A stretch of 27,805 bases of DNA, taken from positions 1 to 27,805 of IMG/VR virus record IMGVR_UViG_3300025431_000013; one strand, written 5' to 3'. Positions 5,890-22,586 of this stretch are shown one piece after another; position 1 is the first letter of the stretch; the number at the start of each line of letters is the position of its first letter. Both the position numbers and the translations under genes were made by a program. Below the pieces are notes generated by a model that did no database searches, had not been told where the DNA came from, and was given only the letters and a program-made list of their open reading frames with translations. This DNA is from a virus.

Positions 5890-8800
5890 TTATTTGCCTG
5901 TATTTTGTAGAATTTCTTTGGCGCTTATGTTGCCCTCATCTGCAGCTTCTTGTATCTTTTTAAGTATGTGCAATCTACCCGCCTCACTTGGCGCATTAAT
6001 GAACTCTTGTAAGAATGCGTTATAATTATCCCTGACTATAATATTCCGAATCCTAACACCTAAGCCTTTCTCTTTTGCTATTACGGCCTCTATCTCTTCT
6101 TGAGTTCCCTCATAGTTCTTATCTTTCATAACATTTTGCAGGTACTGCATAGTTAAGATAGACTGTTCTGCTGACTTTTGTCTTACATCTTTAAGGTCTA
6201 AATATTCATGCACACCTTGATCTGATACCTTGATGAATCTACCAATCAAGTTTTCAATACCTGGGGCTTTAACAAACCCCTCTACGTTTTCTAACGACGG
6301 ATCTGTTAAATACGACATCAAGTCTGACTCAATCTCCTTTACATCATCTGAGAACCTACCTCTAGCAGACATAACAATCTTACCGCCAGAAGAATCCCAA
6401 ACATGCCCTAAGAAAGCATTGCTACGATAATCGCCACCAGCATCCCACTTCATCTTAGTTATAGCTGGACCATTTCTGAAGTCATCATAAGGATTTTGAT
6501 CTATATTGTATTGCCCTATCTTTGAAATTAAAGAATAATAAGGAGACATAGACGGTATCTGTCCAGCACCATAAGAGAGCCACTCTGACATTTCAGCATC
6601 TTTATCTCCCATTATCTGGGTTACGCCCTTCCATGTTATGCCACCAAAGAATCTTCCTGTCTCATCTTGTGGAATTCTAAAGTACACAGCCTTCCCTTTT
6701 TCGGTTAAACCTACAGGAATGATTATGTAGTTAGCTTTATCATATTCAGATACGGCCTGCATGATCGTCATATTCTCGTCACCCCAATCACCTGCCAACA
6801 TACTTGCCATAATAAACTTTGGCATCATATTATATTGAAATACGTTGTAGAAAAACTCTACTGGTCTTTCTTTCATTACCTCAATATCACCACGCCAACC
6901 TTCTTTCATAGCGTTTGAGAACATAAATAGGTTGTTTGTAGCAGGAGTCCACCTTCCTTGGCGAAGGAATGCTGGAGAACCAACTTGCGCTCTAATGATA
7001 TGTCCACGCTCTTCAGGAGTCATTCCAGGATGATGCTTTTTCAAATAGATATGTCCAGCAACTTTAGGGATTCTTTCTAAAGATTGTCCAATATTGTGCC
7101 ATTGTCTCCATAACCACTGAAGAGGTTTTGTCACCTGGTTGTCCCACTTATGAGGAATTTGATGCCAACGCTTCAGCATTCTTTCATGTTCACGATCAAA
7201 CTTGTTATCACCCCATCTATTCTCGATAGAGATCAACTCATTATTCTTGTACATCTCTTTCATGATTGCGTCAGGAATACCGTATGTACCCTTAAATGCA
7301 GGAACAATACCTTTGGTATAAGAGCCTAACATCTGTACAAACTTTAAGTATGGTACGCTTTTAACTATCGGTCCGCTAGATGGTATATTTCTAACTAGAC
7401 GCTTATAGTCACGCCATACGTTGAACATCCAGAAGCCATAGTTCAATTCTGTAAATACTTTTCTAAAAGGTGTATTCATAGCACGCATAAATGTAACCAT
7501 CGCCTCACCATCTAAGTGTCCTTCTTTAAATGATCTGACCACGTATTTATCTAGATAATATCCTTCCATCTTTCCGTTTCTCATTATCTCGATTAACGCA
7601 AGGTCCTTATCTTTAGGATTTTCAAACTCCCAGTGCTTTCCGTTGTACTTTTTGTCAGCAGGTTCAAATCTCATCATAGGATTTGTCTTAGACTCTACCT
7701 CATAGAATCTTAGTACCTTATCCAGAGCAAGGAATCTACTTGTTGCTTTCATTAACAGCATGTCATTAATCAGTGTTCTTGTGAAAGGGTTGGCGACATC
7801 TTTTAATGTGCCGATCTGTCCAAAAATCTTGCCGCTTGTGCCAGCGCCATAGTTGCTGTCCATATACTCAACAACATCAAAGGTTACATAGGCCTTGTTA
7901 TTTTTAATTTTAGCTACCAAGTTTGGATCGTACATGTGCGTTTGCTCAATACGATCAACTACCCATTCCTTTCTTACTTCCCAGAACTCATTAGCAAGCC
8001 GTGGAAGTTTAGGCATTGATTTTTCCATTTCTTTAATCTTTACAAGAGAGGTCTCCTTATCAAAACCTCTAGGGTTAAATATATCGCCACGCTCTTTACC
8101 ACCCTTCTCATTAACAACTCTGTGATGGAATAAATATTCACCAACATCATTAATCTTAATGCCGTTCTTTTCCATGGTTTTAATTACAGAGTTGGCCATA
8201 TCCGTCATAAATCCTTCGTTCTCAGAGCCTTGGTATTGAAACTCTTCTACTTTGTAGATAGGATTGTCTTTATCTTTGAGTGTCTTTTTAAGCGGAGCTA
8301 CATCTTTGATTAAGTCCCAGTATTTATCGTACACATCTCTCATTATTCCATGGGCTACATCTTTAATTGACTTGGCTGTGCTAACTTCCTCAAGCGCTAT
8401 TCCTTCTGCTTTATCAAATCCATCTCTTAGTCTTTGACTAGCTACATCTAAAGATTTGCCGCTAGATAAGTCTTCTTGAACCTTGTTATAGGCTTTATAG
8501 AACTCTGGCTTTTTCTCTAACCAGCTAAAGAAGCCTTTGTATGCTGATGGCGCTGTCTGTTTAGCAAAATGTGGGTTTGTTAATATAGCGCTAAGGAAGT
8601 CTGCATATAGCTCTTTAGTATTATGACGGTATGCTGTGTATTTTGGATCAGCATTGACATCAAAAGGTCTCCACATTCCTGTCAGAGTTTTTAACTCATC
8701 CATAATTACATCTCTACTAAGAAGCTCTCGTCTCTCTACTTCCTTGTAAAACATCTCTTCGTATTTAGCCTTTATCTTGTCTTTAAGGTCTTGTGAAGGC

Positions 8801-11800
8801 GACTCTTTATCTTTCTTCTCTAGCGCTCTAATTTCGGCATATACTTCACCCTTAGCGGCAGTTCTTAGTATATCTTTCTTTAGTTTTCTATCAGCCTTCT
8901 GAATAAACAACCAGATAGCAGGATCAAGTTCACCTTTGTGCATTACGCCAGTAAATATATCTTTGACTTGTTGTGGCGTTAATCCAGTCTCTTCAGAGTC
9001 TTTTACCGCTACTTCAATCTCCGACTCAAGAATCTTTTTAGCATCTCTGCGTAACTTATTCTTTTCTTTAGTAGTTAAAGGCTTCTGTCCACCTGGACGA
9101 CCCTCTAAGTAATGACTTACATACTTGCTTAAAGCGCCAATACGTCCAAGGATATTACCCCTAGACATTGTATAATTCTTTTCACCAGATAGCCAATCAA
9201 CCATGTGACCAATTTCATGTGCAAGTGTTGCTGCGGCTTCTTGTGGGTTTTTAGCAATCTCAGCTAGTAATTCAATTCTGCCACTCTCAGCATCGCCTTT
9301 TCTATGTCTGAACATGCCAGCAGCGCCACCTGATAATTTCTCAAGCACTGAAGGGAGTTTTCCATCTCTTAGTAAGTGTACTAACTCTACCAAGGCAGGC
9401 ATGTTCATTATCTTGTTAGCCTGTTGCGATCCGTTAATCACGTCCATGTTGTAGCCTGCATCAGACGCTTCACCTTTAGGAACTGTCTTCTCTGTCCATT
9501 GTGGGCGAGATGCTTCTGTTTCTTCGTAGCCTGGCTCACGGTCTTTTGCTTCAAACTCAACTCTAGCATCATTTTCTTTTCCAGTCTCTACTTTATCTTT
9601 AGCATATTCATCTACTTTTTCTTTAATAACTGCTAACTCTTTACCCGCTGCAGTCTGTTCAGCAAATGCAATGTCTTTAGCGTTTTCTGCTTTTAATACA
9701 AATATAGCATCATCACCAACTTTACCTTCTCTTTGTGCTTTGAAGATGATTGAGTCATACCCTTTATCTTGTAGTATTTCAGCAACCTTCAATAGTTGAG
9801 ATTGACTGTCAGCTATATCGAGAACACTCCTAGCTTGATCTTTGGTAAAGATTGCAGGGTGGTTTGGCGAGATTCTTGCTAATGTTTGCTGGAAGTATTC
9901 CACCATCATAGCGCCACCTTCTTTGCTTGCTATACCAGAGAAGCTATTTTGTTCAGCAGTAATTGCTAATGAAAAGTCCTCTGAATAGAATCTATATCCA
10001 GGCTCAATACCTTCATCTTTAGCAACCTTTCTCAAGTCTAATGGCGCTGTATATCTTATTTGGGTTCGTATGAAATTAGGGTTGTCATGTTGCTTAGACA
10101 TTGAGTCTGCTAATCCGTCTGAACCAAAGAGTAAAAAGCCATTTCTTGGGTTGAAACCTTCTCTTGAGATAACGTCAGCATCAGTCTTGCCAACAAGATG
10201 AGTTACTAGAACTTCACCTACTTCGTTGTCGTATTCTGGAATCTTTAGCTCATCAATACGGTCTAAAGGCTCTGCTAACTTTTGATTCTTGCTTACATAG
10301 TCTGGGTAATGGAATCCTGTTTCAACAAAACGCTTATGATCTGCTATTTGAGCCTCTACTGTTTCTTGACTCTTAACGTATTCGTCAATCTTGCCTCTAT
10401 AAGTTTCTACAAAATCCTTACCGAATGCGCTCTCTATTAATTTATATGTATTTGTTTCAGCCTCTACAGCCATATCCTCTAAGCCTAATTCTTTTAAGGC
10501 ATCTATACCCTGCTTAGACTCTTCCATAAATGACTTAATTTGCATGTCAATCTCATCTAAAGGCTTGGCTTCTGTTTCCCTACCCTCAATAATCTTTGAC
10601 ACTTCAGCAAAGCTCTCATCTAGAATAATATGTCTACCTTTCGACTCTGCGTAATCAGCAATGGCTATAATCTGTTGGGCATTAAGCTCGCCTTCAAAAT
10701 CTTTAATAACCCAATTGCCGTTTTCCACCATCTCAAAGGTAATCTTTGTATGTGGCGATCCTGGCTTCTTGTTAGTACCCATCACTTCTAATGTTGTAGC
10801 CTCGCCTTCTTTTACATCCATGAAGCGAGATAGCTTAATCTCTTCACCTTTTACGTTCACATTGCTTCGAGATACTTGCTCAATACGCTTCATTATCTGT
10901 GCAACAAGATTTAAGTAATACTCTGGCATTACAAATTCTTTCTTGCTTAGTATTTGAGATAGTTGTTGTGCTAATTCAGGATTAGCTTCCATATCTTCTC
11001 TTACCTTTCTAGGGTCGATGTTGTAGTCTTTATACATCTTAGCAAGGTTTTTACGAATGTACCAGTCTGTCTGACGAACCTGCTCTTCAATTCCTGACTT
11101 AGTGGATGAGAATGTTTTGTTACCGCCTCGCAACACTAATAACACAGCTGCAGTTTTTCCGAAATCACTCCAAGTTGGAGTGTAACCGTGCATCCAACCA
11201 CCCATTTTAACCATTGCTGCAGTTTCAGTTGCTAGTGTTGCTCCGCTTGTTATTGTTCTTCCTGTAAAAGTCTTCCCTGAAACGCCCATTATCTTTGTAG
11301 CATAACGTGTTAAAGCTCCTACTTCACCAGTGACAAGACCGATTAGAAATTCTTTGCCGCCTTCTTCTAGCGCATGTCCAAGAACTTGAAGAAACTCAAC
11401 GTCATTTTCAACAATTCCAGCCTCCATTAAGTCTGTCATAGCAGTACGCATTACAGCAGGAACACCAAACGCAGCGCCCATTGAACACCCTGCCGCTGCA
11501 GCTCCTATAACTGTTGGATGAGCGCCTACTTTTGAACACGCAATACCACCAGCAATACCAGCTGGAATCATAACTGGCAGCTCTGATACTACAGCGGCAA
11601 CGTCAAATATTACTTGCTTGGAGAAGTCTTGTTGTCCGTATGCTTGAGTCGCAATAAAGAACTCTGCAATGTTCCTAGGGGCATCTGGGTCTCCAGACTT
11701 TAATGCAACCAGATTGTTAATTAAACCAATAACACTGCCGTTAGTACCTAGCCTAACAGTTTCTGGAATACTCCAATTCTTACTCATTAAATCTGGGTCA

Positions 11801-12579
11801 ATCTTATAGCGTCTAATCCATTCATTAATTTTGTCGTACCCTTGTTTTGTTGCTTCGTCTACCTCGTCACCAATGACAATCTCAGGCATTCCAGCAATAG
11901 CAAGACTCTTATTCTCAATCATGAAATTTTGAAGTTGCTCTATTTCTGCGTCAGTTAAGTTTACTGCTGGCTTCATATCTGTATAAGACTGTTGCCTGTA
12001 AGTGTCAAACTGTGCAAGACCTTCTCTAACCTCTTCCCAAGGCGTTTCATTTGTTACAGATTCATCAATAAATTCTGCAACCTTTGGATTGCCTTCCCAC
12101 ATCTGGCTAAGGATTTCCTTTCTAGTGTATGGAGTCCATGTTTTGTAATTGTTGTAGTTATCTTCAGCGTGTTCAGCTTCTTGCCAATTACCACCTTGAT
12201 AATCTTTTTCAATTTGATAATTCCAGTTTCTACCATCCGTTCCTTCAAACTGATAATGTAGTCCTGGTGTCAGGTGTGAAATAGTTGGTTTTATATCGAA
12301 GTTGAACTTACCTTCATGCCCACCAACTTCCATAATAGGACTATAGCCAGATTGTGATAAAGGGGTAATTGTTGAAAGGTTTCGCTGATTAGCGTTTCCA
12401 ATAATATTAAGATAGTGGTCAGTTCCGTAGCCAGTGTCTTCTGTAATTTCAGCATCTGTAAAACCTGCTTTAGCTAAGTTGTGACGCTCCCTAAGAAGAT
12501 CAGCGTTTATCTCATCATCCGTAAATCCTGCGTCCTTTAAATCTAGTCTATCCTGAATCTGCTGAAATGCTGGTATCAT
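5890..12579 (-). CDS. Giant internal virion/ejection protein (T7 gp16 position), polyvalent
   Basis: 2229 aa, well above the roughly 1320 aa of T7 gp16, and in the gp16 place after gp14/gp15-like genes. Residues 14-24 and 35-45 repeat LKDAGFTDDEI/LAKAGFTDAEI. About 325-378 is a long Ala/Gly-rich hydrophobic stretch that could insert in a membrane. About 783-975 resembles the ADP-ribosyltransferase-like domains of large phage polyvalent proteins (THLVGKTDADVI, GFLLFGSDGLA, GYDSIIFKAQREG). H1121-E-I-G-H1125 within LAHEIGHMVDW is a zinc metallopeptidase motif. About 1690-1970 (FNVWRDYKRLVRN, then FRIPQDETGRF) resembles LPD38. No lytic transglycosylase domain is recognisable. Starts directly after the TAG of the previous gene with AGGA upstream. 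Probably packed in the capsid core and injected with DNA; enzyme activities are inferred from motifs only. Confidence 0.8.
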   Translation of the reverse strand: MIPAFQQIQDRLDLKDAGFTDDEINADLLRERHNLAKAGFTDAEITEDTGYGTDHYLNIIGNANQRNLSTITPLSQSGYSPIMEVGGHEGKFNFDIKPTISHLTPGLHYQFEGTDGRNWNYQIEKDYQGGNWQEAEHAEDNYNNYKTWTPYTRKEILSQMWEGNPKVAEFIDESVTNETPWEEVREGLAQFDTYRQQSYTDMKPAVNLTDAEIEQLQNFMIENKSLAIAGMPEIVIGDEVDEATKQGYDKINEWIRRYKIDPDLMSKNWSIPETVRLGTNGSVIGLINNLVALKSGDPDAPRNIAEFFIATQAYGQQDFSKQVIFDVAAVVSELPVMIPAGIAGGIACSKVGAHPTVIGAAAAGCSMGAAFGVPAVMRTAMTDLMEAGIVENDVEFLQVLGHALEEGGKEFLIGLVTGEVGALTRYATKIMGVSGKTFTGRTITSGATLATETAAMVKMGGWMHGYTPTWSDFGKTAAVLLVLRGGNKTFSSTKSGIEEQVRQTDWYIRKNLAKMYKDYNIDPRKVREDMEANPELAQQLSQILSKKEFVMPEYYLNLVAQIMKRIEQVSRSNVNVKGEEIKLSRFMDVKEGEATTLEVMGTNKKPGSPHTKITFEMVENGNWVIKDFEGELNAQQIIAIADYAESKGRHIILDESFAEVSKIIEGRETEAKPLDEIDMQIKSFMEESKQGIDALKELGLEDMAVEAETNTYKLIESAFGKDFVETYRGKIDEYVKSQETVEAQIADHKRFVETGFHYPDYVSKNQKLAEPLDRIDELKIPEYDNEVGEVLVTHLVGKTDADVISREGFNPRNGFLLFGSDGLADSMSKQHDNPNFIRTQIRYTAPLDLRKVAKDEGIEPGYRFYSEDFSLAITAEQNSFSGIASKEGGAMMVEYFQQTLARISPNHPAIFTKDQARSVLDIADSQSQLLKVAEILQDKGYDSIIFKAQREGKVGDDAIFVLKAENAKDIAFAEQTAAGKELAVIKEKVDEYAKDKVETGKENDARVEFEAKDREPGYEETEASRPQWTEKTVPKGEASDAGYNMDVINGSQQANKIMNMPALVELVHLLRDGKLPSVLEKLSGGAAGMFRHRKGDAESGRIELLAEIAKNPQEAAATLAHEIGHMVDWLSGEKNYTMSRGNILGRIGALSKYVSHYLEGRPGGQKPLTTKEKNKLRRDAKKILESEIEVAVKDSEETGLTPQQVKDIFTGVMHKGELDPAIWLFIQKADRKLKKDILRTAAKGEVYAEIRALEKKDKESPSQDLKDKIKAKYEEMFYKEVERRELLSRDVIMDELKTLTGMWRPFDVNADPKYTAYRHNTKELYADFLSAILTNPHFAKQTAPSAYKGFFSWLEKKPEFYKAYNKVQEDLSSGKSLDVASQRLRDGFDKAEGIALEEVSTAKSIKDVAHGIMRDVYDKYWDLIKDVAPLKKTLKDKDNPIYKVEEFQYQGSENEGFMTDMANSVIKTMEKNGIKINDVGEYLFHHRVVNEKGGKERGDIFNPRGFDKETSLVKIKEMEKSMPKLPRLANEFWEVRKEWVVDRIEQTHMYDPNLVAKIKNNKAYVTFDVVEYMDSNYGAGTSGKIFGQIGTLKDVANPFTRTLINDMLLMKATSRFLALDKVLRFYEVESKTNPMMRFEPADKKYNGKHWEFENPKDKDLALIEIMRNGKMEGYYLDKYVVRSFKEGHLDGEAMVTFMRAMNTPFRKVFTELNYGFWMFNVWRDYKRLVRNIPSSGPIVKSVPYLKFVQMLGSYTKGIVPAFKGTYGIPDAIMKEMYKNNELISIENRWGDNKFDREHERMLKRWHQIPHKWDNQVTKPLQWLWRQWHNIGQSLERIPKVAGHIYLKKHHPGMTPEERGHIIRAQVGSPAFLRQGRWTPATNNLFMFSNAMKEGWRGDIEVMKERPVEFFYNVFQYNMMPKFIMASMLAGDWGDENMTIMQAVSEYDKANYIIIPVGLTEKGKAVYFRIPQDETGRFFGGITWKGVTQIMGDKDAEMSEWLSYGAGQIPSMSPYYSLISKIGQYNIDQNPYDDFRNGPAITKMKWDAGGDYRSNAFLGHVWDSSGGKIVMSARGRFSDDVKEIESDLMSYLTDPSLENVEGFVKAPGIENLIGRFIKVSDQGVHEYLDLKDVRQKSAEQSILTMQYLQNVMKDKNYEGTQEEIEAVIAKEKGLGVRIRNIIVRDNYNAFLQEFINAPSEAGRLHILKKIQEAADEGNISAKEILQNTGK

Positions 12580-14439
12580 CTAATTAAGTCCTAATAATTT
12601 AAGTCTAGCTCGCCACGCGGTAGGAGTTTCTGTTCCGTTTGGATACTGATTATAGCCTGGATGATCTGTTGGGAACTGTATTCTTTTAGCAGCGTTACCA
12701 TGCCACGCATCTGCGTAATTAGCATCAGTGAGAGCCTTAGCGTATTCATACGTCGTCCCTTCTGGGAAATGAGAATTGCGTCCATATAATTCGATTATCA
12801 TTTGGTTCTTACCTGACTCAATGACGTTGCCTTTTTCGTCAAGAACCACATCAGCCTTAGCATCATCGCCACCGTACCAGTCTTTAACGTCTTCCCAGAA
12901 AGTAGTCCTATCGTCGTCGAATTTCTGAGTAGGTGTCATATAGCTAGGGTCGTCTGGCTTTTCATCTGGCATAGTGCCGTTGATAGAGTTGATTAAAGTA
13001 TCCACTATGTAATCAGGACTATTAAAATCCAACATGCTCATCCACGTCTTCCCAGCCTTTTCTCCTTCCTTGAGCATTGTCTCTAGCTGCTGGTCGAAAG
13101 CTGTAACTTTGTCATCTGCTGCAGCCATTTTATTTTTAAAAATATTAAGCTTTCCTTCAGCTGTCATGTATTTTTCCATGCCTGATAATGGCCCAGAGAA
13201 TACTCGTCTCGCATGATCTGTAGCGGTGTTCATTGAAAGAGATAGTTCTGAATTTTTACTCTTGTCGCTAATAGCTTTAATCAGCTTATCCACTTCCTCT
13301 ACTGGCATGTTTTTTGCTGCAGCTCTTACAAGCCTCTCCACTTCATGCGGGTCTTTTGTAACGTCGTTAATCTTAGCGACCGTACCATCTTGTATTTTTC
13401 TTTTTATGTCTTGGAAAAGAGGAGTCCAGTGATATACACCTTTTTCTTTTAACTGATTAAACCAATACATATCTCTACCAGATGGCAGCCCTTCACTCAC
13501 AGCTTCCACATCTTGTATTGTCAACTCACCAGCTAAGAACTTCTTCGATAAACTCTTCTCTAAAGATTCAAGATTTATATTATTTTGTCTTTTTTCCGCT
13601 TTAATTCTTAGACCTAAGTTATCTTTAAAGAACTGACGTAATTTTTTCCTATCTGGCTCACCAATAGACTCATCATTGTTGATGTTAATGATTGCCTGGT
13701 CATAGTGCGCTGCTGTATATCCAGTTTCCATATTGTTGGGATTAACCTCTAAACCTAAACCTCCCAAAGCGTTCTCGTATGCAGAGAAGAATGCCAGATC
13801 AGCTTTAGCATTATCATTCAATTTTGTCCACTTGGCAACATCTCTATGAACAACAGAACCTGAAAGGGCCTCTGTGAACATGTTGTTAATACCATCAAAG
13901 GCTTCTTGCTTTTGCTGTACGCTAGGGCTTGTTTTAATTGTTTCTAAAAAGGCACTATGGTTTGTTTGGTCATTTGCTGAAAGTCTAGCAAATCTCTGTT
14001 TTCTCCCAAACACGCCAGCACTTTCATAAGCTGCATTAAACTTGTCGTTAAAAATAACACCAAACTCTGAAACAGCTTTATCATCTTTACCAGCGGTAAG
14101 CTCTTCCCATGCAGCACCCCATTGCGTCTCTTCCCTCTTCTGCCAAAATCCCTTCTCATTATTACTTAAATACGTAGGGTCGTATCTAGCCTCATTCCAT
14201 TTCTGTGACATTTTGGAAAGTCCAGAGTCCATATCTTGGACCTGTTGACGGATTTCACTCTGATCCATGTCATCGTCAAACGCTTTTTGTATTTGTAATG
14301 CTGCACTTGTTATTGAAGAACTCATATTCAATGCAGCTCGCCCCGAAGCACCAGCTTGATTAATCCACCCTGAGCTTCCGCCTGAAGTACCTTTGTAGCC
14401 GATTTGTGTGCCTTGTCTTGCTCTAATCGTAATTGCCAT
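12580..14439 (-). CDS. Internal virion protein, T7 gp15-like by position
   Basis: 619 aa, hydrophilic and largely helical, with a small-residue N-terminus (MAITIRARQGTQIGYKG, then GWINQAGASGRAALN). Long charged helical stretches follow, for example residues about 70-150 (KMSQKWNEARYD, QKREETQWGAAWEEL) and about 245-330. No catalytic motif or membrane span is seen. It sits between a gp14-like gene and the giant gp16-position gene, the place and rough length (T7 gp15 is about 750 aa) of T7 gp15, which with gp14 and gp16 forms the core and then the periplasmic conduit during DNA entry. The assignment rests on gene order and overall character, as sequence similarity across this family is weak. 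AAGGA precedes the ATG; the next gene begins immediately after its stop. Confidence 0.75.
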   Translation of the reverse strand: MAITIRARQGTQIGYKGTSGGSSGWINQAGASGRAALNMSSSITSAALQIQKAFDDDMDQSEIRQQVQDMDSGLSKMSQKWNEARYDPTYLSNNEKGFWQKREETQWGAAWEELTAGKDDKAVSEFGVIFNDKFNAAYESAGVFGRKQRFARLSANDQTNHSAFLETIKTSPSVQQKQEAFDGINNMFTEALSGSVVHRDVAKWTKLNDNAKADLAFFSAYENALGGLGLEVNPNNMETGYTAAHYDQAIININNDESIGEPDRKKLRQFFKDNLGLRIKAEKRQNNINLESLEKSLSKKFLAGELTIQDVEAVSEGLPSGRDMYWFNQLKEKGVYHWTPLFQDIKRKIQDGTVAKINDVTKDPHEVERLVRAAAKNMPVEEVDKLIKAISDKSKNSELSLSMNTATDHARRVFSGPLSGMEKYMTAEGKLNIFKNKMAAADDKVTAFDQQLETMLKEGEKAGKTWMSMLDFNSPDYIVDTLINSINGTMPDEKPDDPSYMTPTQKFDDDRTTFWEDVKDWYGGDDAKADVVLDEKGNVIESGKNQMIIELYGRNSHFPEGTTYEYAKALTDANYADAWHGNAAKRIQFPTDHPGYNQYPNGTETPTAWRARLKLLGLN

Positions 14440-14442
14440 GTG

Positions 14443-14880
14443 TTATCCTTTTTTTCCAACAGCATAAGAGCTTGCTGCGCCACTGATACCTGACAGTAGA
14501 GAGCCTGTTGCTTGACTTTGTGCTGCTGTAAATTTATCTGCTCCAGCCGCCCAGAGCTTATGTGCATTCTTAGCGCCTGTTCTATAGATCTGAGCTTGGT
14601 CTTCTTGTAAATCGTTTAGAGTGTTCATGGCTACCAACATTGGAGAGCCAACACCTGCTGCAACACCAGCACCGCCAGCTTGAGCCATCTGCATGTGCAT
14701 CTGCTCCAACATCTGACGTTGTAACACTTTTGCTTCGTAATGTGACCTTTCTAATTCTTGATGATATTCGATCTGTCCAGCTTTGTATCCAGCCTTACCA
14801 GCTTTCATAGCGCCTTGAGCGCCCATTACTCCACCAGCTAATGAGGCTGCTCCTGCAATACCTGCTGCAATCCAACTCAT
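14443..14880 (-). CDS. Internal virion protein, T7 gp14-like
   Basis: 145 aa. Residues 1-35 are Ala/Gly-rich and hydrophobic (IAAGIAGAASLAGGVMGA), then comes a Gln/Met-rich helix (RQMLEQMHMQMAQAGGAG) and the family-like GVGSPMLVAMNTLNDLQEDQAQIYRTGAK block, ending in a second Ala/Gly/Ser-rich segment. This layout fits small gp14-type ejection proteins of podoviruses, which in T7 form the outer-membrane pore. The position between tail tube genes and the two large ejection genes supports it. The stop lies four bases before the gp15-like ATG, and the start overlaps the end of the cupin gene by four bases (ATGA). AGGAGATAT precedes the ATG. Confidence 0.8.
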   Translation of the reverse strand: MSWIAAGIAGAASLAGGVMGAQGAMKAGKAGYKAGQIEYHQELERSHYEAKVLQRQMLEQMHMQMAQAGGAGVAAGVGSPMLVAMNTLNDLQEDQAQIYRTGAKNAHKLWAAGADKFTAAQSQATGSLLSGISGAASSYAVGKKG

Positions 14881-15392
14881 GATATATCTCCTAAACTATT
14901 CAACTCTTTCTCTGTGGCAATCATACCAATTTCCTCGTAAGTCTCAGCGATAACTTCACTCTCAATCTCAGCTAACTTATCTTCACCAAGATGTTGAGTT
15001 AAATGCACTGTAGTCCAGATAGTGTCTTCCTCTACCAGAACCGCTCTTTTTAAGCCGACCTCTGATACAAATGTACAGGGAGCTGTGTAATACTTCTTGC
15101 CATACTCTGTTACTACCGATACCACTCCTTTAGAGATGATATTGATATGTGAGTGCCTGTGTATCTTACCGACTACTAGTGACCCCTTGGGTAAGTGAAT
15201 CTCTCTAGCGTATGTTCCACAACCATATTCATCTACTACTGGAGCAAAGTAATGCTTTAGAGTTGATTGGTCTTTCTCAAAGTCTCCAGACTCAATGCCA
15301 CTCTCTATTGCTTCTTGCAGGTTTATAACACCTTCTCTAGCCTTTACACGAGACAATGAATTTTCACCTTCAATTTTCTCTAGTGCTTGCAT
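14877..15392 (-). CDS. Cupin-fold protein in the place of T7 gene 13
   Basis: 171 aa. Residues about 48-135 read as a small cupin (RmlC-like) barrel: YAREIHLPKGSLVVGKIHRHSHINIISKG, later APCTFVSEVG and WTTVHLT. H78, H80, H82 and H130 are candidate metal ligands, the usual number for a cupin, though no metal or substrate can be named. The N-terminal 45 residues and C-terminal 35 (LAEIESEVIAETYEEIG) are helical. It lies between gp12-like and gp14-like genes, where T7 has gene 13, and overlaps both neighbours by 1-4 bases. Similar cupins occur in this position in other marine podoviruses, from memory. It could be a virion protein, an assembly factor or an enzyme. Confidence 0.75.
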   Translation of the reverse strand: MQALEKIEGENSLSRVKAREGVINLQEAIESGIESGDFEKDQSTLKHYFAPVVDEYGCGTYAREIHLPKGSLVVGKIHRHSHINIISKGVVSVVTEYGKKYYTAPCTFVSEVGLKRAVLVEEDTIWTTVHLTQHLGEDKLAEIESEVIAETYEEIGMIATEKELNSLGDIS

Positions 15393-17797
15393 TAATCACT
15401 CACCGTTAGTGTTCCATGAATACCCAATACCGTTAATGGTAAAGGTTGTTCTTGTTTGATTTCAATAATACCATCTCTGTCCCAACCAAGATTAGTAACT
15501 CTCTTATCACCTGTAAATAAGCCTACACCAGCACTCATTAGATCTGCTGACGTTCTGAATGGTAGTTGGTCTCCATTAATCTTCACACCTGTTGTATTAA
15601 GCAATCTAACCTTAACTTCATTCCATCTCTTCTTCAGTCCTTGAGCCTTTCCTGCTTGAGAACCTGCCTCAACACGCATAGTCTTTAAAGTAGATGTAAA
15701 GTTTAATCCTACTTCAATAGCAACATTACTCCAACCTGTTGGTACAGATATAGTTATAGATCCGCTTGAGACTGTCTTATCAGGGAATACAGCATCATTT
15801 ATCACTACATTGACCGTTTCCCCTTCTAAGTGAGAAAGTCCGCTTACAGACGTTGTGGCTGTAGATACAGTACCAGTGATACCAGAGTCAACATTAATAT
15901 CTGGGTCTAGGTACTCAACGTATCTGACTGATGAACCGTTTATTGTTCTTTGTACTAACACCCATAACTGATCTTGAGTTGTGTTTGTAATTACTGTTAG
16001 GCTTTCTACTTTAGAGTCTGTACCACCTACCTCATGTCCTGCCCATGCAACAACATCTTCTGGACGTTCATAAGTCATACTAAGTAGCTTACCATCTGCT
16101 GTACAAGACCAAACAATAGAGTCTGGCTCTTGCTGATAGTCCATATCTTTAAGATAGCCAGAAGTAATATGTTCTGCTAACAATGTCATATCAGGCGCAA
16201 TGTACCCGTTGTCTTGATACTGATAAGAGAACTCTCTAAGCTTGCGTCTTGCTCTTTGGGCGAATAATATAGAATTACCTACTTGTAACGGAGGGATTGT
16301 CCAACTTCCATAAGTAGTCTGCTGAGTTACCATTACATTAGATGGTGTTAGAGGCTCACCTTGTGGGCGACCTACTTTAAATTCACCACCACCTGTACCA
16401 ACAATAAGATCTCTACTTGGTTGCATCCATCTAATAACATTCACTCTGTTAGTAGCAATAGCGTATTCCATAGATTGATCTGCAAGACCAGTACCCTGAT
16501 CGAAGTTCTCATAGTCTGCTGTTTGAGAACCCCAGATAGTTTGTGGAGATGCTGATGTACCTGCAAAGAATAATCTCTGCTCATAGAATGTTACTGTTCT
16601 TGGATAGCCATTAGCATCATTCCAAGGTGAAGTAGTTGCCCATGTAAAGTCTGGCTGACTTAATGACCATGACGTATGACCAGTTCTACTTAACTTTCTT
16701 GGTGCGTGTGCGCTATGACAGATATACATAACATCTGCTGATTGCGAGATGTGTAATTCAAATAAGTCTGTCTCTAAATATGGCGTGGTAATCTCATAGA
16801 TACCATCTGTTCCAGATACAGTAGAAGTTGCTGTTGCTCCTGTGCCTGCTCCACCTGTAAATGTTACTGTTGGTACTGAAGTATAACCAGAACCAATAGC
16901 AGTTACTGATACTGCATCCACACCCATTGTAATAGTTGCTTCTGCAATAGTAGACATGTCACCACCTTCAAACGTTACTGTAGGTGGGGTTGTGTAATCA
17001 TGACCACCGTTTGTTAGTGTAACAGTATCTATCTTCATAGTTGGGTCTAATACTGCTGGTGTATCATAAGCGCCTGCAATAGTTATCTCTGGAATTTCGG
17101 TATAACCTGTACCAGCATTGGTAATGGTTATTGCGTCTATCTTACCTGCTCCGTTGATAGTACATGTGGCCGTTGCACCAGAACCAGTGTCGTCAACATC
17201 TAAAGCAGTAATAACTATAGTCGGGGCTATTGAATAACCTGTACCACCGTCTGTGATTGTTAAATCATCAACTGCTAAATCTAACGTTGCTGAAGCTGCA
17301 GAACCAGCACCACCTGAGAATTTAATCGTAGGCACTTCTGTGTAACCAGCGCCAGATGCTGTCTTAGTAATAGACTCTACTGCTAGAGTTGCTGTTGCTG
17401 TAGCGCCAGTTCCACCACCGCCAGTAAATCCTACTGTTGGAACGGTAGTATAGTTATCACCACTAGCTGACATTAATACTTCTAGTACAGAATTTGGGGT
17501 AGTAGATATTTGACCGTTGTCTTTATAGAATCTAATGTACTGATCGCCAAACTCTAATACATAAGACTGGGTTATGTTAAACTCGAAAGGGATTAATCTT
17601 ACTTCCTTGGTTGAGTCTTTAACCTCTGAAACGAAGTGAGTTCCACCTCTACGAGTAGCACCACCATGAGGATATACCACCATGTTAGTTAGCTCACTGC
17701 AACCGTTAAAATATTTCTTAAAGTCAATCTGTCCTTCAAGACGAGGACTTAACTCCCCAGCTGTAAAGTTAGACTGAAAGGGATGTACTCTAGCCAT
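15392..17797 (-). CDS. Tail nozzle protein, T7 gp12-like (tail tubular protein B), with repeat insert
   Basis: 801 aa. The N-terminus (HPFQSNFTAGELSPRLEGQ, then GCSELTNMVVYPHGGATRRGGTHFV) is diagnostic of the podovirus tail tubular protein B / stabilisation protein family, as are YVLEFGDQYIRFYKD (residues about 79-93) and, later, WMQPSRDLIVGTGGGEF with RRKLREFSYQYQDNGY. Members form the hexameric nozzle at the tail tip below the gp11-like adaptor. Residues about 108-332 are an insert of six repeats not expected in T7 gp12. Outside the insert, about 575 residues remain, somewhat short of the nearly 800 of T7 gp12. AGAGGATAAA precedes the ATG. It ends overlapping the cupin ATG by one base and begins two bases after the gp11-like stop. 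Confidence 0.9.
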   Translation of the reverse strand: MARVHPFQSNFTAGELSPRLEGQIDFKKYFNGCSELTNMVVYPHGGATRRGGTHFVSEVKDSTKEVRLIPFEFNITQSYVLEFGDQYIRFYKDNGQISTTPNSVLEVLMSASGDNYTTVPTVGFTGGGGTGATATATLAVESITKTASGAGYTEVPTIKFSGGAGSAASATLDLAVDDLTITDGGTGYSIAPTIVITALDVDDTGSGATATCTINGAGKIDAITITNAGTGYTEIPEITIAGAYDTPAVLDPTMKIDTVTLTNGGHDYTTPPTVTFEGGDMSTIAEATITMGVDAVSVTAIGSGYTSVPTVTFTGGAGTGATATSTVSGTDGIYEITTPYLETDLFELHISQSADVMYICHSAHAPRKLSRTGHTSWSLSQPDFTWATTSPWNDANGYPRTVTFYEQRLFFAGTSASPQTIWGSQTADYENFDQGTGLADQSMEYAIATNRVNVIRWMQPSRDLIVGTGGGEFKVGRPQGEPLTPSNVMVTQQTTYGSWTIPPLQVGNSILFAQRARRKLREFSYQYQDNGYIAPDMTLLAEHITSGYLKDMDYQQEPDSIVWSCTADGKLLSMTYERPEDVVAWAGHEVGGTDSKVESLTVITNTTQDQLWVLVQRTINGSSVRYVEYLDPDINVDSGITGTVSTATTSVSGLSHLEGETVNVVINDAVFPDKTVSSGSITISVPTGWSNVAIEVGLNFTSTLKTMRVEAGSQAGKAQGLKKRWNEVKVRLLNTTGVKINGDQLPFRTSADLMSAGVGLFTGDKRVTNLGWDRDGIIEIKQEQPLPLTVLGIHGTLTVSD
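16802..17476 (-). repeat. Six-copy Gly/Thr-rich repeat inside the gp12-like gene
   Basis: Encodes residues about 108-332. Each copy has the pattern (S/T/N)-x-G-x-(G/D)-Y-(T/S)-x-x-P-(T/E)-(I/V)-x-(F/I), then a Gly/Ala/Thr-rich strand and a closing (V/I)-x-x-(I/V)-T-x-T. The repeat tyrosines are Y116, Y152, Y188, Y232, Y268 and Y305, giving spacings of 36, 36, 44, 36 and 37. Fourth and third copies are the most divergent. The pattern is that of a short beta-repeat, probably a solenoid or a string of small beta domains on the outside of the nozzle. Confidence 0.85.
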
Positions 17798-17798
17798 T

Positions 17799-18362
17799 TT
17801 ATCCTCTAAAGCTTGTAAATGTATCTGAAACTATACCGTCAATAAAACCTTCTGCACCATCTATACTTCTTGATTCTGAAACCTTAGCGTCATACAACTC
17901 CCACATCTGCTTAGATAAGGTATTACTACCTGTAACAGAATAAGCTAACTCTGCAGACATACGCGAAGTTAGTAACTCTGTGAACATGGAATCGAATTGC
18001 GCTGTGTCAGTAACTTTAGCAATGTATAAAATCTTTGCACTGTCTTCGTTACATAGTAGCTTACGACCTTCTACCTTGAAGTTAATATCTTGATAGTCCA
18101 TCTGAAGGACTCTAAGACAATAAGGATCTGTAGGTAAGGTGAACTCAGCAGTGTAATCAAATGCTGGAGTTGTTGATAGCTTACTTAACTCTGCTCTTGC
18201 TATAGCAAAGTTCCAAGGATGTGACCTTAATAGGGCATCTCTGGTTGGAGCATAAAAGGCGTTACAGAGTCTTGCTCTCTCTGTATCGTCAGTTAGGGAA
18301 GTGATTGGATCGTCACCAAGCTTGCGTAATGCGTTTGAACAAATGGAAACCTCTGTTGCCAT
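17799..18362 (-). CDS. Tail adaptor protein, T7 gp11-like (tail tubular protein A)
   Basis: 187 aa, close to the 196 aa of T7 gp11. The N-terminus (ICSNALRKLGDDPITSL, then ARLCNAFYAPTRDALLRSHPWNFA) is the signature of the tail tubular protein A family, as is the FTLPTDPYCLRVL block at about residues 93-105. It forms the ring that joins portal to nozzle and, with gp12, offers the docking site for the tailspike anchor. AGGAGAAG precedes the ATG. A 61-base gap upstream carries a hairpin and a TATAAT, noted separately. Confidence 0.92.
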   Translation of the reverse strand: MATEVSICSNALRKLGDDPITSLTDDTERARLCNAFYAPTRDALLRSHPWNFAIARAELSKLSTTPAFDYTAEFTLPTDPYCLRVLQMDYQDINFKVEGRKLLCNEDSAKILYIAKVTDTAQFDSMFTELLTSRMSAELAYSVTGSNTLSKQMWELYDAKVSESRSIDGAEGFIDGIVSDTFTSFRG

Positions 18363-18382
18363 ATCTCTTCTCCTGAATGTGG

Positions 18383-18417
18383 TGAGGACAACCCATTATA
18401 GGAAGCCCTCATTTTTT
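18383..18417. other. Hairpin in the gap between capsid genes and gp11-like gene, T-run on the plus strand
   Basis: TGAGG at 18383-18387 pairs with CCTCA at 18407-18411, with further inner pairs, and TTTTTT follows at 18412-18417 on the plus strand. Read rightward this is a rho-independent terminator shape, against the direction of the genes here. Read leftward it is a hairpin with no U-run. It lies just where T7 has T-phi, after the capsid gene and before gene 11. It may be an RNA stability or processing element for the capsid message, or a stop for antisense transcription. The minus strand loop also reads TATAAT at 18400-18395, so a weak promoter for the tail genes is an alternative. Confidence 0.4.
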
Positions 18418-18423
18418 CTTACT

Positions 18424-18903
18424 TTAGTCTAGTACGTAAACTACGTAACCAGAAGCTGTGTCAGCATCAGCAATAGCTGTATCTTCACTTGTTAAGCGAA
18501 TAGATACGCCACCTTGCGATGTGAACGTCTTAGTTCCTGCAGTTAATGCAGAACCCATAGCAACTTCACCAGTAGTATCAACGTCAATACCGTTGTCAAT
18601 ACCATCTGAATCTGCAGCTACAGCAGCACCGTCAAGATCTGTGTAAGCATCCCAACCAATGTCCATAGTAGCACTAGCAGTAGTCCAGTTGTGATCTACG
18701 CGACACATTGCACCTAGAACACGAACAGTACCAGCAGGTAAACGTACAACTTCCGTAGAAGATGTAGCATCACCAGCGCCAGACTGAGTGTGATCGAAGT
18801 AAGCAATTCTCAAGCGACCATGAATGTCAGCTGTATCTTCTCTTACAGAAGGTGAAGCGTCAAATCCAGTTACTTGAGTACCTTTTTGTGTAGTAATAGC
18901 CAT
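18424..18903 (-). CDS. Probable capsid accessory/decoration protein
   Basis: 159 aa, rich in Asp, Thr, Ala and Ser, acidic, beta-rich, no membrane span. Recognisable features are an early RLRIAYFDHTQSG strand, VVRLPAGTVRVLGAMC, and a C-terminal IRLTSEDTAIADADTASGYVVYVLD. The gene comes 13 bases after the major capsid stop with its own strong ribosome site (AGGAGAAT), which suggests high, coupled expression. Small soluble beta proteins directly after the capsid gene in podoviruses are often decoration or head-fibre proteins. That role is inferred from position and composition; I cannot name a family. Confidence 0.65.
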   Translation of the reverse strand: MAITTQKGTQVTGFDASPSVREDTADIHGRLRIAYFDHTQSGAGDATSSTEVVRLPAGTVRVLGAMCRVDHNWTTASATMDIGWDAYTDLDGAAVAADSDGIDNGIDVDTTGEVAMGSALTAGTKTFTSQGGVSIRLTSEDTAIADADTASGYVVYVLD

Positions 18904-18916
18904 TTATATTCTCCTA

Positions 18917-19777
18917 TTATTCAGTACACGCAATCTCTACTACTTTCTCGTCTTCAACACGAGTAGCACCGATTGTCATTGATAAAAATACTTGAGTAGC
19001 ATAGTTCTTGTCATCACGCTCGCTGATGCGAGTTTGAATCTCTGAACCCATTGCTAGACCAAGACCTGATTTACAGTACACAGTAACCTGACGGTTGCCA
19101 TCTGTATCTGTGCCAACACGCTCTGAACGTACAAACTTAAAGCCTAAGAAAGAATCTAATTGACCTTGTGCCAACGCTTTAACAGTGTTGTAGTCAGAAG
19201 ATTTAACTTCAGTAGAGTTAAGTAAGTCTGTAACTTGCTTCGCAGTAAGAATACAGAAACGCTCTTCTTCAGCATCTACGTCAGAACCATCAATGATTTC
19301 TTTAGCTTCTAAAAGCTTAGTAACAGTTAGACCTGCTGAACCATGAACGATCTTCTGTGCAGAAGGAAGTGCGATAGTAGTACCACCAGCAACGCCACCA
19401 TAAGCATTACCAACTGCAGCTTCAATAATTGCAGTATCCATAGCACGACCCATTGCATTAGCACCAGCCATTGCATACTCGCTCTGTGGAGTGATTAACA
19501 TACGAACCTTATCTTCCTGGTCGATTAAATCTGCCCAGTCGTAGTCATCCATTGAAACTCTACGTCTTGAATGTGGAGTATCCATACGTGGAGTATCTGA
19601 GTGACGTGAAGTACGCTTTTGCGCTGAAACTGCACCAATTCTTTCGAAGAAGTGATTCTTACCTGTTACCGATTCGTAACGAACCGTATCGCGTAATCGT
19701 GAACCTTTTTGTTGTGCAAGGTGCAACACATTACTTTTATACTGCTCGATAAAAGCAGTTGTGATTTCAGTGGACAT
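18917..19777 (-). CDS. Major capsid protein
   Basis: 286 aa. It follows the scaffold gene and precedes accessory and adaptor genes, the standard podovirus order. Sequence features fit an HK97-fold capsid of the BPP-1/marine-podovirus type: an N-terminal helix (FIEQYKSNVLHLAQQKGSRL), a charged arm region (KRTSRHSDTPRMD, then SRRRVSMDDYDWADLIDQED), a spine-like helix (AMAGANAMGRAMDTAIIEAAVGNAYGG) and a C-terminal block TRISERDDKNYATQVFLSMTIGATRVE. No maturation protease gene lies next to it. The strongest Shine-Dalgarno of the window (AAAGGAGGGC, five bases before the ATG) and a roughly 165-base leader point to high expression. Confidence 0.9.
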   Translation of the reverse strand: MSTEITTAFIEQYKSNVLHLAQQKGSRLRDTVRYESVTGKNHFFERIGAVSAQKRTSRHSDTPRMDTPHSRRRVSMDDYDWADLIDQEDKVRMLITPQSEYAMAGANAMGRAMDTAIIEAAVGNAYGGVAGGTTIALPSAQKIVHGSAGLTVTKLLEAKEIIDGSDVDAEEERFCILTAKQVTDLLNSTEVKSSDYNTVKALAQGQLDSFLGFKFVRSERVGTDTDGNRQVTVYCKSGLGLAMGSEIQTRISERDDKNYATQVFLSMTIGATRVEDEKVVEIACTE

Positions 19778-19943
19778 AATGCCCTCCTTTTATTATTAAA
19801 CAAAAAAACGGTCATTATCCTTTCGGGTGTCCTGTCTATCACGCTGACTAAACGGGTTTAAGAACCACCTTTAACCTATCGTTATCCATAAGGGCGATGT
19901 ACGGTTGGTGCGAATTTTACCTCGCTTGATTATTATCTTACCA
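19778..19943 (-). promoter_or_regulatory. Long leader of the capsid gene
   Basis: 166 non-coding bases in an otherwise tightly packed block. On the minus strand it contains a GTCA/TGAC pair with extra CG pairing around 19845 and 19810, a CCGAAAGG element near 19822, a T7 run (minus strand) at 19802-19808, then the AAAGGAGGGC ribosome site. No ORF of use is seen. It may fold as a structured 5' leader that stabilises or times capsid translation, as T7 does with its gene 10 leader. I matched it to no known RNA family. Confidence 0.4.
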
Positions 19944-20750
19944 CTAATTATAGGCTTTATCAAATAATTGTCGCATTTCTTCTTGAGCGTCTTGATGTTT
20001 AGGACTTGTTGCATCCCAGTAAGCGTTAGACTTATCTCCGTTAATCTGCTCAATACGCATCTTAGCATCTAGTGGACTCATTACTAGAGAGTTGTTAGCA
20101 GTACCTTGTGCTGAATCCTCCGTAATATCTTTACCAGCATTAGCAAGTAGTCTAATCAAGTCTGGATCATTCCCAAATCTTGGATCAGATAGTTTCTGCT
20201 GTAGCTCTGGTGTGCCATACACTCTTAATGCCCTCTGTGCTGCTGATAAACTTTTATCATAATTAGCACCAAATTCTTCTCTTAGGACTTCTTCTGTCTG
20301 AACACCTGTTGCATCACCTGCAACTTGCTCTTGATTCATTTGATAATCAACAGAACCTTTTTGCCATTCGACTAGTCCTTGCATTTGTTTAGGTGATAAC
20401 CCTAGATCATGTCCTGTTTGTTTAAATGAGTTCATCATTTCCTCTGGATAGTATTGTTCATATCCTTGAGGCACTTCAACTTCGTAACCATCTGCTGATT
20501 CAGGTCTACCAAGTTTTGCATATAACTCGTTCATCTCTTCATCATTCTTAGGGATAGGGATTCTACTGCCCATCATCTTTTGCTGATGAATAAGTGTTTT
20601 TGCTGCAGACTCGACATCATTAATACTTGAAAGCGTTGGATCTGCTCTCAATTCCTCTGATAACCCCGATCTCCAATCTTGGTTACCACTCTCAACAGGT
20701 GCTACTACTTCTGCATTATCCGTTGTTTTCGTGACCATTTCTTCACTCAT
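19944..20750 (-). CDS. Capsid assembly scaffolding protein
   Basis: 268 aa, acidic, highly helical, rich in Glu, Gln, Asp and Met, without a catalytic motif. Early residues hold WRSGLSEELRADPTL and a middle block has KLGRPESADGYEVEVPQG (about 75-95), a pattern typical of podovirus scaffolds; then come helices such as GLSPKQMQGLVEWQKG, LREEFGANYDKSLSAAQRAL and a C-terminal helix (HQDAQEEMRQLFDKAYN), the part that usually contacts the capsid protein. It lies directly before the major capsid gene. Scaffold acts inside the procapsid and is released before packaging. AGAGGAA precedes the ATG. Confidence 0.88.
   Translation of the reverse strand: MSEEMVTKTTDNAEVVAPVESGNQDWRSGLSEELRADPTLSSINDVESAAKTLIHQQKMMGSRIPIPKNDEEMNELYAKLGRPESADGYEVEVPQGYEQYYPEEMMNSFKQTGHDLGLSPKQMQGLVEWQKGSVDYQMNQEQVAGDATGVQTEEVLREEFGANYDKSLSAAQRALRVYGTPELQQKLSDPRFGNDPDLIRLLANAGKDITEDSAQGTANNSLVMSPLDAKMRIEQINGDKSNAYWDATSPKHQDAQEEMRQLFDKAYN
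19947..19974 (-). promoter_or_regulatory. Candidate sigma70-type promoter for the capsid gene
   Basis: On the minus strand GCGACA (19974-19969; four of six match TTGACA) is followed by a 16-base spacer and a perfect TATAAT (19952-19947), inside the last codons of the scaffold gene. Transcription would start near 19940 and give capsid mRNA its roughly 160-base leader. T7 places its strongest late promoter in the matching spot before gene 10. Confidence 0.4.
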
Positions 20751-20754
20751 AACT

Positions 20755-20964
20755 TTATTCCTCTTCTTTTATATTACACATATTTAAAATACGAAGGTAG
20801 ACAGCTCTTTCACCCTCTCGCCTCGCGGTTTCATACGAGTCACCTTTTACATAGGATTCTCGTAGTTGATATGCCCTGCGAAGGTCATCTAGGACTTTAC
20901 CCCCAGATATAGACCCAAAACAGTCAGCATAATCTCTTTTGATTTTAGCAATAGCTCTAGGCAT
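20755..20964 (-). CDS. Bbp19-like small protein
   Basis: 69 aa. The core FGSISGGKVLDDLRRAY, then GDSYETARREGERAVYLRIL, matches the pattern I know for the Bbp19-like family (G-x-x-V-L-x-D-L, then a central E-G-x-R/E before a hydrophobic helix), named for Bordetella phage BPP-1. The family is found beside portal and scaffold genes and its function is unknown. Here its ATG overlaps the portal stop by one base and its stop is four bases before the scaffold ATG, so it is expressed with both and probably helps head assembly. Confidence 0.75.
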   Translation of the reverse strand: MPRAIAKIKRDYADCFGSISGGKVLDDLRRAYQLRESYVKGDSYETARREGERAVYLRILNMCNIKEEE

Positions 20965-22586
20965 TATTGCATTGCCTCTACCATTTGAGCCATACCAGCT
21001 TCACTAGCTTCAACATTCTCAGATGTAAGCTGTTGTGCTACTGGTGCTACTGTGGCTGCAAGGTCTGCACCTTGTTGTGCTTGTTGCATAGCCATAGCTT
21101 CTTGTTGTTGTTGCATCTCAGCTTTACGCTTCTCTTCAATTACTGCTGGATCACGCATGATGTTCTTAGGAACACCTAGTAATTCAGCTCTTGATCTAAT
21201 TGCAGCGTCATGGTCAATGTTATCCATAACCTCTGGAGCGATTTGTGCAAGATTAGCAGCCATCTCATATAGTCTTTCTACTGCTGTAGCCTCTTCCATT
21301 CTCTGAGAACGGGCTAGAGGACCAACGTATTCAATATCAATATCAATACCATCTAACGATCCTGGTGCAGGTGCAAACATTTCATTACGTTGCATGATAG
21401 CGAAACATCTTTCGATAAGCGGATTCAAGAACTCTGTCTGGAATCTACCAAGTGTAGGACCTAATAGACGTTGCATTAATTCATAACGAACCTGAACCTC
21501 TGTAGCTGTCATTTGTGGACCACTCTGTAACTCTAACTGATCTGAATAGAATGCTTGTTTAATAGCACCACGTAATTCAGTCTCTTTCATATCGGATACA
21601 TCAAATCTTGCACCAGTATTAAGAGGTTTGATTGCGCCATCTCTACGAACAACAGTAATACCTGCTGGTGTAGTCTTAACTCTACCGATTACACCGTCAT
21701 CTTCTACTAGAAGTGGTGGATCAATAGCTTTAGCCCATGCTTTAAGACCTAACTCTACTGCTTTATTCAGAGTTTTGATGTCTGGTAGAGCGTTGTAAGC
21801 AGGTGAACGACCGTATTCTTCGCCAGAAGCCTTAGACCATCTAGTTACAAGGTATGGCATTTCGTTATAACCACCTTCTTGTACTACGTTCTTATCTTCT
21901 TTACCTATATGAATACTTATAAAAGGTAGTTTAGATTGTTTCTTGCTTTTATACTCTTCTGAAGGCATTACACAATGAATGAATGTAAACTTCTTGTCAG
22001 GGTTATTCTCAAATGCTTCTTGCACTTTAGGACCTACTGCATCACCCCACTTCTGTTTGGCTTGTCTAGCAGTGTATTCAAACTTCCTATATAAGGTATC
22101 AATCTTGCCTTGATGATTCTCTGAGATGAAATACTCTGAGATATGAAGTGTTCTGAAGTTAAAACCGTTCTCAGCTTCTTCTGTTTCAATACAAGATGTA
22201 CCAATAGAACAAATATCAAGATAGAACTCATGAACCTCTGTATTGAAGTTAGATGAATTGAATGCTTTGTACATTCTATTACGACAGTCCTCTAACCACA
22301 CCTGTACTTCTCTACTCTGGTTAAGACTCTCGTCTCTTACACGTAAGTGAAACCATGGCAGTGATGCTGATGTTAAAGTTCCTTGTAATGATGCAGCTAA
22401 TAATGTGTTCGCATGAATTGCTGACGAATCATATAGCTTCTCGGTACGTTTAGAACCTTTAGCATACTGAACTGTAACCTCTGCTTTACGAGGCATTACA
22501 TAGTCAAGAATCTCTTGCCAATGAATTTCCCATGTCTGCTTGCCTGACTCTAATCTCTCTAGTCTTTTTAATATTTGTTCGACCAT
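20964..22586 (-). CDS. Portal (head-to-tail connector) protein
   Basis: 540 aa, the usual size for T7-type connectors. Early residues (LKRLERLESGKQTWEIHWQEI, YVMPRK, KLYDSSAIHANTLLAASLQGTLTSASLPWFHLRVRDE) carry the hallmark of the podovirus head-to-tail connecting protein family. The middle has RWSKASGEEYGRSPAYNALPDIKTLNKAVE and GPQMTATEVQVRYELMQRLLGPTLGRF, both typical. The C-terminus is Gln/Met-rich (AEMQQQQEAMAMQQAQQGAD) as often seen. Twelve copies form the ring through which terminase drives DNA and to which the gp11-like adaptor binds. Starts two bases after the neighbour's... upstream gene stop with only a weak ribosome site, so coupled translation is likely. Confidence 0.95.
   Translation of the reverse strand: MVEQILKRLERLESGKQTWEIHWQEILDYVMPRKAEVTVQYAKGSKRTEKLYDSSAIHANTLLAASLQGTLTSASLPWFHLRVRDESLNQSREVQVWLEDCRNRMYKAFNSSNFNTEVHEFYLDICSIGTSCIETEEAENGFNFRTLHISEYFISENHQGKIDTLYRKFEYTARQAKQKWGDAVGPKVQEAFENNPDKKFTFIHCVMPSEEYKSKKQSKLPFISIHIGKEDKNVVQEGGYNEMPYLVTRWSKASGEEYGRSPAYNALPDIKTLNKAVELGLKAWAKAIDPPLLVEDDGVIGRVKTTPAGITVVRRDGAIKPLNTGARFDVSDMKETELRGAIKQAFYSDQLELQSGPQMTATEVQVRYELMQRLLGPTLGRFQTEFLNPLIERCFAIMQRNEMFAPAPGSLDGIDIDIEYVGPLARSQRMEEATAVERLYEMAANLAQIAPEVMDNIDHDAAIRSRAELLGVPKNIMRDPAVIEEKRKAEMQQQQEAMAMQQAQQGADLAATVAPVAQQLTSENVEASEAGMAQMVEAMQ

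Follow-up and report, generated by a model that had tools for sequence, protein, structure and literature searches.

IMG/VR virus record IMGVR_UViG_3300025431_000013, analysed here as a single 27.8-kb stretch of DNA (the window), encodes among its virion genes a giant protein of 2229 residues (P0001, positions 5890-12579), whose domains, relatives and probable role in DNA ejection are considered below. The open reading frame is real and intact, as originally predicted, with the correction that it lies on the minus strand, as do the domains and motifs placed in it below and the genes of the 145- and 619-residue proteins; it starts with ATG, is uninterrupted and is found unbroken in a second contig (L001) with 100% protein identity, within 17.5 kb at 99.9% DNA identity. 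The genes of the window are arranged in the order terminase, portal, scaffold, capsid, tail tube A, tail tube B, a 171-residue tail-fibre-like protein, a 145-residue protein, a 619-residue protein, the giant and a tail fibre, which is the order of T7 genes 11-17. Gene calls and PHROG scans thus confirm the proposed T7 gp16-like setting, in which the giant stands between the gp14- and gp15-like genes on one side and the tail fibre gene on the other, as fits T7 gp14-15-16-17. The 145-residue internal virion protein (14443-14880; PHROG 418, E 5.1e-6) occupies the position of T7 gp14 or N4 gp52 and the 619-residue protein (12580-14439) that of T7 gp15 or N4 gp51, and the trio formed with the giant parallels, in order and approximate sizes, the 16.5 kDa protein, 66 kDa protein and virion RNA polymerase (vRNAP) of phage N4 (gp52-51-50). 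Relatives of the giant were found in one cultured phage of the collection, Pelagibacter phage Baldr (EXVC032P, gp20, OQ414636; L003), at 28% identity, in some 40 further IMG/VR loci (L numbers below) and, among bacterial genomes, as a single fragment in an Omnitrophota metagenome-assembled genome. The literature under the isolate name Baldr yielded nothing relevant.

The HEIGH motif noticed originally at residues 1121-1125 (9205-9219) is present and sits within a predicted zincin-like metallopeptidase spanning residues 1049-1362 (8494-9435). H1121, E1122, G1124 and H1125, as well as E1295 and E1323, are invariant across 27 aligned proteins, so that the motif is not a chance occurrence. In a model of the C-terminal half (mean predicted local distance difference test score, pLDDT, 70.9), made from an alignment from which the Baldr row had been taken out, residues 1049-1362 were found by VIA-align to match anthrax-LF-type zincins (Z 8.3-8.8) and, with lower scores (Z of about 4-5), ACE-type zincins; this is a statement on fold, not on toxicity. 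A third zinc ligand had been anticipated downstream of H1125, and E1323 (8611-8613), on a downstream helix (residues 287-300 of the model, numbering +1034), is the likely candidate, a role taken from the position of the helix in the model, not from coordinates. H1092, which is not kept in all relatives, closes predicted strand 2 (1088-1091) and D1128 lies three residues past HEIGH. A His ending strand 2 and an Asp three residues after HExxH are signatures of phage-type polyvalent peptidases, which have been unified with the LF-type fold by Iyer et al. (PMC5512222). Besides its HExxH motif, the giant thus has a Glu on a further helix downstream, a His at the end of strand 2 and an Asp at +3, and a zincin fold with its ligand set is supported by fold prediction plus alignment.

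Residues 760-980 (9640-10302) are predicted to form an ADP-ribosyltransferase (ART)/PARP-like domain, and the stretches from which such an enzyme had been proposed at 783-975 are where they were placed (THLVG with H794, LFG at 817-819 and GYDSI at 940-944). When a model of the N-terminal half (mean pLDDT 61.8; ~65-84 through much of the core of the ART-like domain, <50 in the insert 861-890) was compared with solved structures by VIA-align, tankyrase, PARP13 and PARP14 occupied nearly all of the rows listed, aligned to this region, the best match having Z 8.5 over 120 residues at 3.6 Å, a moderate score from one model. Weak but independent sequence signals in relatives point in the same direction. 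ART-PolyVal (PF18760) reaches 16.9 bits in L034, against a cut-off of 31.2, weak matches to KptA, an ART-fold family, fall at the same place in L008 and L034, and a profile of the giant's ART-like domain picks L018 at its Pfam ART-PolyVal region (E 0.0011). The PF18760 model itself has no match in the window protein, and the ART profile found no relevant match among PDB sequences. Region 760-980 very probably has an ART fold. Catalysis is another matter. H794 (10198-10200), the strand-1 histidine, is invariant among relatives that have the domain; at the position of D957 most of them have an acidic residue, Asp or Glu, and L022 has Asn. Strand 2 reads L816-L817 in the window, where most relatives have a His at 817 and none has a Tyr. 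Since the H-Y-D family of ART carries a Tyr on strand 2 (PMC5512222), the catalytic set is incomplete, with H794 and D957 in place and the Tyr missing in the window and its relatives, and ADP-ribosyltransferase activity of the domain is somewhat doubtful. The originally proposed ART thus stands as a fold, not as a complete active site.

The helical C-terminal third (residues 1400-2229, 5893-8382) had been likened to LPD38. In agreement with this, the C-half model finds 70 predicted proteins of viruses at E <0.001, many of which bear the name LPD38 or Large polyvalent protein associated domain. LPD38 (PF18857) is also seen below its cut-off of 27 bits in relatives (17.0 bits in L004, 15.4 bits in L039), while the window protein has no Pfam match to it. 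As LPD38 is not a known enzyme, and not a toxin enzyme, the giant contains two enzyme-like domains and not the three toxin-like enzyme types that had been claimed. Solved structures matched by the C-half model include the C-terminal domain of N4 gp50, at Z 5.0 and 4.7, as well as a pre-ejectosome chain of a cyanophage, at Z 3.6. The N4 vRNAP, which is treated as an ejected protein, likewise has an HExxH subdomain and, after it, a large domain that is helical and has no known fold (PMC12633501). Profile-profile comparison with eight vRNAPs gave a best match in roughly the same register at E 0.094, reversed and shuffled controls ranging from 0.31 to 0.94. A direct sequence link between the C-half and the N4 vRNAP was considered and rejected, since a hidden Markov model search gave no signal above shuffles and profile-profile comparison only this E of 0.094. 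Common ancestry of the giant's C-terminal third and the N4 gp50 C-terminal domain is best described as suggestive. No RNA polymerase family was found in Pfam or PHROG scans of the giant, in which residues 500-760 are without fold assignment.

PSI-BLAST and profile searches split the relatives of the giant into two clades that differ in their N-terminal halves. In the ART clade (the window, L007-L013, L015, L016, L019, L022, L033, L034 and L036-L038), region 760-980 is present, an N-terminal region corresponding to residues 1-290 (11710-12579) is shared and no transglycosylase-type region was found by these searches. In the other (Baldr, L004, L006, L023, L025 and L030), that N-terminal region is replaced by one with an ESDNRN...GxxQ motif (near residues 225-420, as in Baldr), and no ART region was found by the same searches. 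An SLT profile made from members of this second clade recovers the proteins it was built on and also L031, but nothing from the ART clade. As had been predicted, no lytic transglycosylase was found in the giant by this profile or by a Pfam scan. Neither Pfam nor a search of PDB sequences with a profile of this region gave a supporting match, and the region is for this reason named transglycosylase-type from its motif alone. In a tree built from the C-half, these clades come out as sisters (SH-like approximate likelihood ratio test 98), and each lies wholly to one side of a branch (99 and 100), so that one exchange, in either direction, suffices. The best explanation, from these sequence comparisons, would be a chassis that stays constant while its enzyme cargo differs, ART-like in one clade and transglycosylase-type in its sister. 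The zincin and LPD38-type C-half of Baldr are ~28% identical to those of the giant, and within the ART clade identity to L007 is ~30% in the ART-like region, 46% in the N-terminal region and 56% in the zincin. Both clades, together with L031 and L032, also conserve a Gly/Ala-rich hydrophobic region (residues 318-491, 11107-11628) that probably inserts in the membrane; a comparison with the N4 N-terminal domain found nothing. Part of this region (residues 346-491, 11107-11544) gave model matches to Tim23 and to a complex I subunit chain at Z 9.5-9.9, which are of one superfamily, Tim17/22/23, a likeness that may be due to chance in a helical segment of low pLDDT and is not pressed.

Some relatives have other domains together with the zincin and C-terminal third. 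The giant of L018 (1100-13582, 4161 residues) has radical SAM and ART-PolyVal domains, and that of L027 (2483-13795, 3771 residues) radical SAM, RadC and part of ART-PolyVal. On the same chassis, an N6/N4 DNA methylase and KilA-N are found in L039 (5876-13498), and an SNF2 helicase and an Eco57I-type methylase in L042 (2-9457). A broader reading, which we offer tentatively, is that an ejection chassis made of hydrophobic segment, zincin and LPD38-type region, distant kin of the N4 vRNAP C-terminal domain, may carry swappable cargo, be it a transglycosylase, an ART-like domain, radical SAM together with ART, a methyltransferase or a helicase, and that near-identical marine phages might swap the cassette to change what is delivered.

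The 619-residue gene and the giant gene, together termed the cassette, are exchanged as a unit between near-identical phages. L034 and the window share an 8-kb backbone (14351-22396 in the window, 1-8050 in L034) at 98% DNA identity, rising to 99-100% in 400-bp blocks beside the junction, and their capsid, tail tube B and 145-residue proteins are 100%, 99% and 98% identical, respectively. Their cassettes, by contrast, are only 41% (619-residue protein) and 49% (giant) identical, while that of L034 resembles the one in L008 (84% and 92%, respectively). DNA alignment places the break inside the 619-residue gene, at about codon 30 or earlier (14345-14375, no strand assigned). A like discordance is seen between L007 and L015, which are 96% identical in capsid and 94% in tail tube B but 34% in the giant. 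A chimeric assembly might account for L034 taken by itself, but L007 and L015 would then call for another. Mosaic conservation of ejection proteins is reportedly known in general.

The polyvalent architecture and ejection-protein setting envisaged for the giant are thus supported, although not as a new kind of delivery system, since such domain combinations were catalogued in 2017 (Iyer et al., PMC5512222). Like the polyvalent proteins of that catalogue, the giant unites two unrelated enzyme-like domains, an ART-like fold and a zincin, in one polypeptide encoded among late virion genes, and shares with them a zincin hub, an ART-like fold and phage-type peptidase signatures, with a C-terminal third that resembles their LPD38. 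It differs in having no Pfam family above cut-off, an ART without strand-2 Tyr, and no RNA polymerase, lysozyme or DNA-modifying domain that could be seen. Its closest cultured counterpart, Baldr gp20, has the same gene order, zincin, LPD38-type C-half and Gly-rich region, but carries a transglycosylase-type region (ESDNRN...GLFQF) where an ART region is absent, the reverse of the giant. N4 gp50 (structures 9pnt and 9pnr) has a broadly comparable layout, with a zincin-motif subdomain before a large helical C-terminal domain and a structural match that is remote, and is preceded by small and 66-kDa ejection proteins in the same order, but has an RNA polymerase domain not seen in the giant, and the sequence relation is not significant. 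T7 gp16 is similar in gene position and large size, but has a lytic transglycosylase where the giant has a zincin and an ART-like domain. T4 Alt, a head-packaged and injected ART, offers a model for a possible role of the ART-like domain, except that it belongs to the R-S-E clade (PMC5512222) whereas the domain of the giant is nearer the H-Y-D/PARP side.

Taken together, these findings are probably best explained by a marine podovirus-type phage in which the giant serves as a polyvalent ejection protein. As gene order and relatives suggest, it would be packaged alongside the proteins of 145 and 619 residues and ejected ahead of or with the DNA. The two smaller proteins would form a trans-envelope conduit, and the Gly-rich hydrophobic segment and LPD38-type C-terminal third a delivery chassis at the membrane. 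The zincin would cut either the giant itself, releasing domains, or a host protein. The ART-like domain would be variable cargo that reaches the cytoplasm, where it may ADP-ribosylate a host target or bind one without catalysis. By analogy, self-processing is slightly favoured over a host target, because phage P1 DdrB undergoes processing before packaging and the authors who defined the class favour processing of polyvalent proteins by their own peptidase (PMC5512222). For the same reason, and since zincins of this type cut proteins, the earlier idea of a peptidase that cuts the cell wall is unsupported. Nor do the present findings support the idea that the giant disarms host defence. Several points weigh against the scenario as a whole. 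Pfam and PHROGs scans of the giant gave no match above cut-off, so that no Pfam family is assigned to it; Foldseek alone, run with each half against PDB, gave nothing at E <0.001, what it matched being helix-dominated noise; the low mean pLDDT of the N-terminal model has been mentioned; the N4 match is near noise, the direct profile search being empty; and besides the missing strand-2 Tyr the window also lacks the His common there in relatives.

An incomplete ART site, with no strand-2 Tyr and with its third acidic residue replaced by Asn in L022, in a domain that is less conserved than the others compared with L007, would also suit a purely structural ejection protein, in which zincin and ART-like folds are relics aiding assembly or the conduit, with no enzymatic effector role, and the N4 vRNAP is indeed packaged unprocessed despite its HExxH subdomain (PMC5512222). 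This seems quite unlikely, however, in view of the full zincin ligand set kept in 27 divergent proteins, of H794 being invariant across the clade with Asp or Glu at D957 in most, and of clear enzyme domains on other proteins of the same chassis. Alternatively, the zincin might act on the host as infection starts, degrading a protein of its defence or envelope, and the ART-like domain might modify the RNA polymerase or translation factors of the host, as has been proposed for T4 Alt. This departs from the explanation above only in the zincin substrate and in the need for an active ART. The fold match to protein-cutting zincins is consistent with this, ART domains of polyvalent proteins have been proposed to modify host proteins (PMC5512222), and cassette swapping between near-identical phages is what conflict predicts. 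No target is known, though, the ART site is incomplete and P1 DdrB sets a precedent for processing before packaging (PMC5512222), making a dedicated host effector unlikely in our view. Far less credible is a T7 gp16-type protein with a transglycosylase diverged past recognition rather than absent. It would share the gene position, and a chance-like ES..N..GLxQF string at residues 173-191 was considered as its remnant, but this candidate was rejected as its Glu is not kept in L010 or L016, and the sister-clade SLT profile finds its own members and L031 but no ART-clade protein.

If the giant is indeed a polyvalent ejection protein, a marine lineage whose sister clade includes Baldr, a SAR11 phage in culture, joins the phages that have one. 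Because the class was already known, what the giant adds is the exchange between sister clades, the chassis being common to both while a transglycosylase-type region in one appears to take the place of the ART-like domain in the other, and the exchange of the cassette between near-identical phages. It is now testable whether the zincin acts on the giant itself and whether ejected cargo is swapped to meet host differences.

Three further features of the window were noted. A stretch of ~700 bp in the tail tube B gene (16798-17508), with GGxGYTxxPTVxFTGG-type repeats, is present in L001 and L034 but missing from most relatives (L007, L008, L010, L013, L015 and others). The 171-residue tail-fibre-adhesin-like protein (14877-15392), between tail tube B and the 145-residue gene, occurs in some relatives only (L001, L008, L022 and L034). 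Finally, a GNAT acetyltransferase gene lies near the portal gene (22830-23243), and the Baldr annotation has one at an equivalent place.

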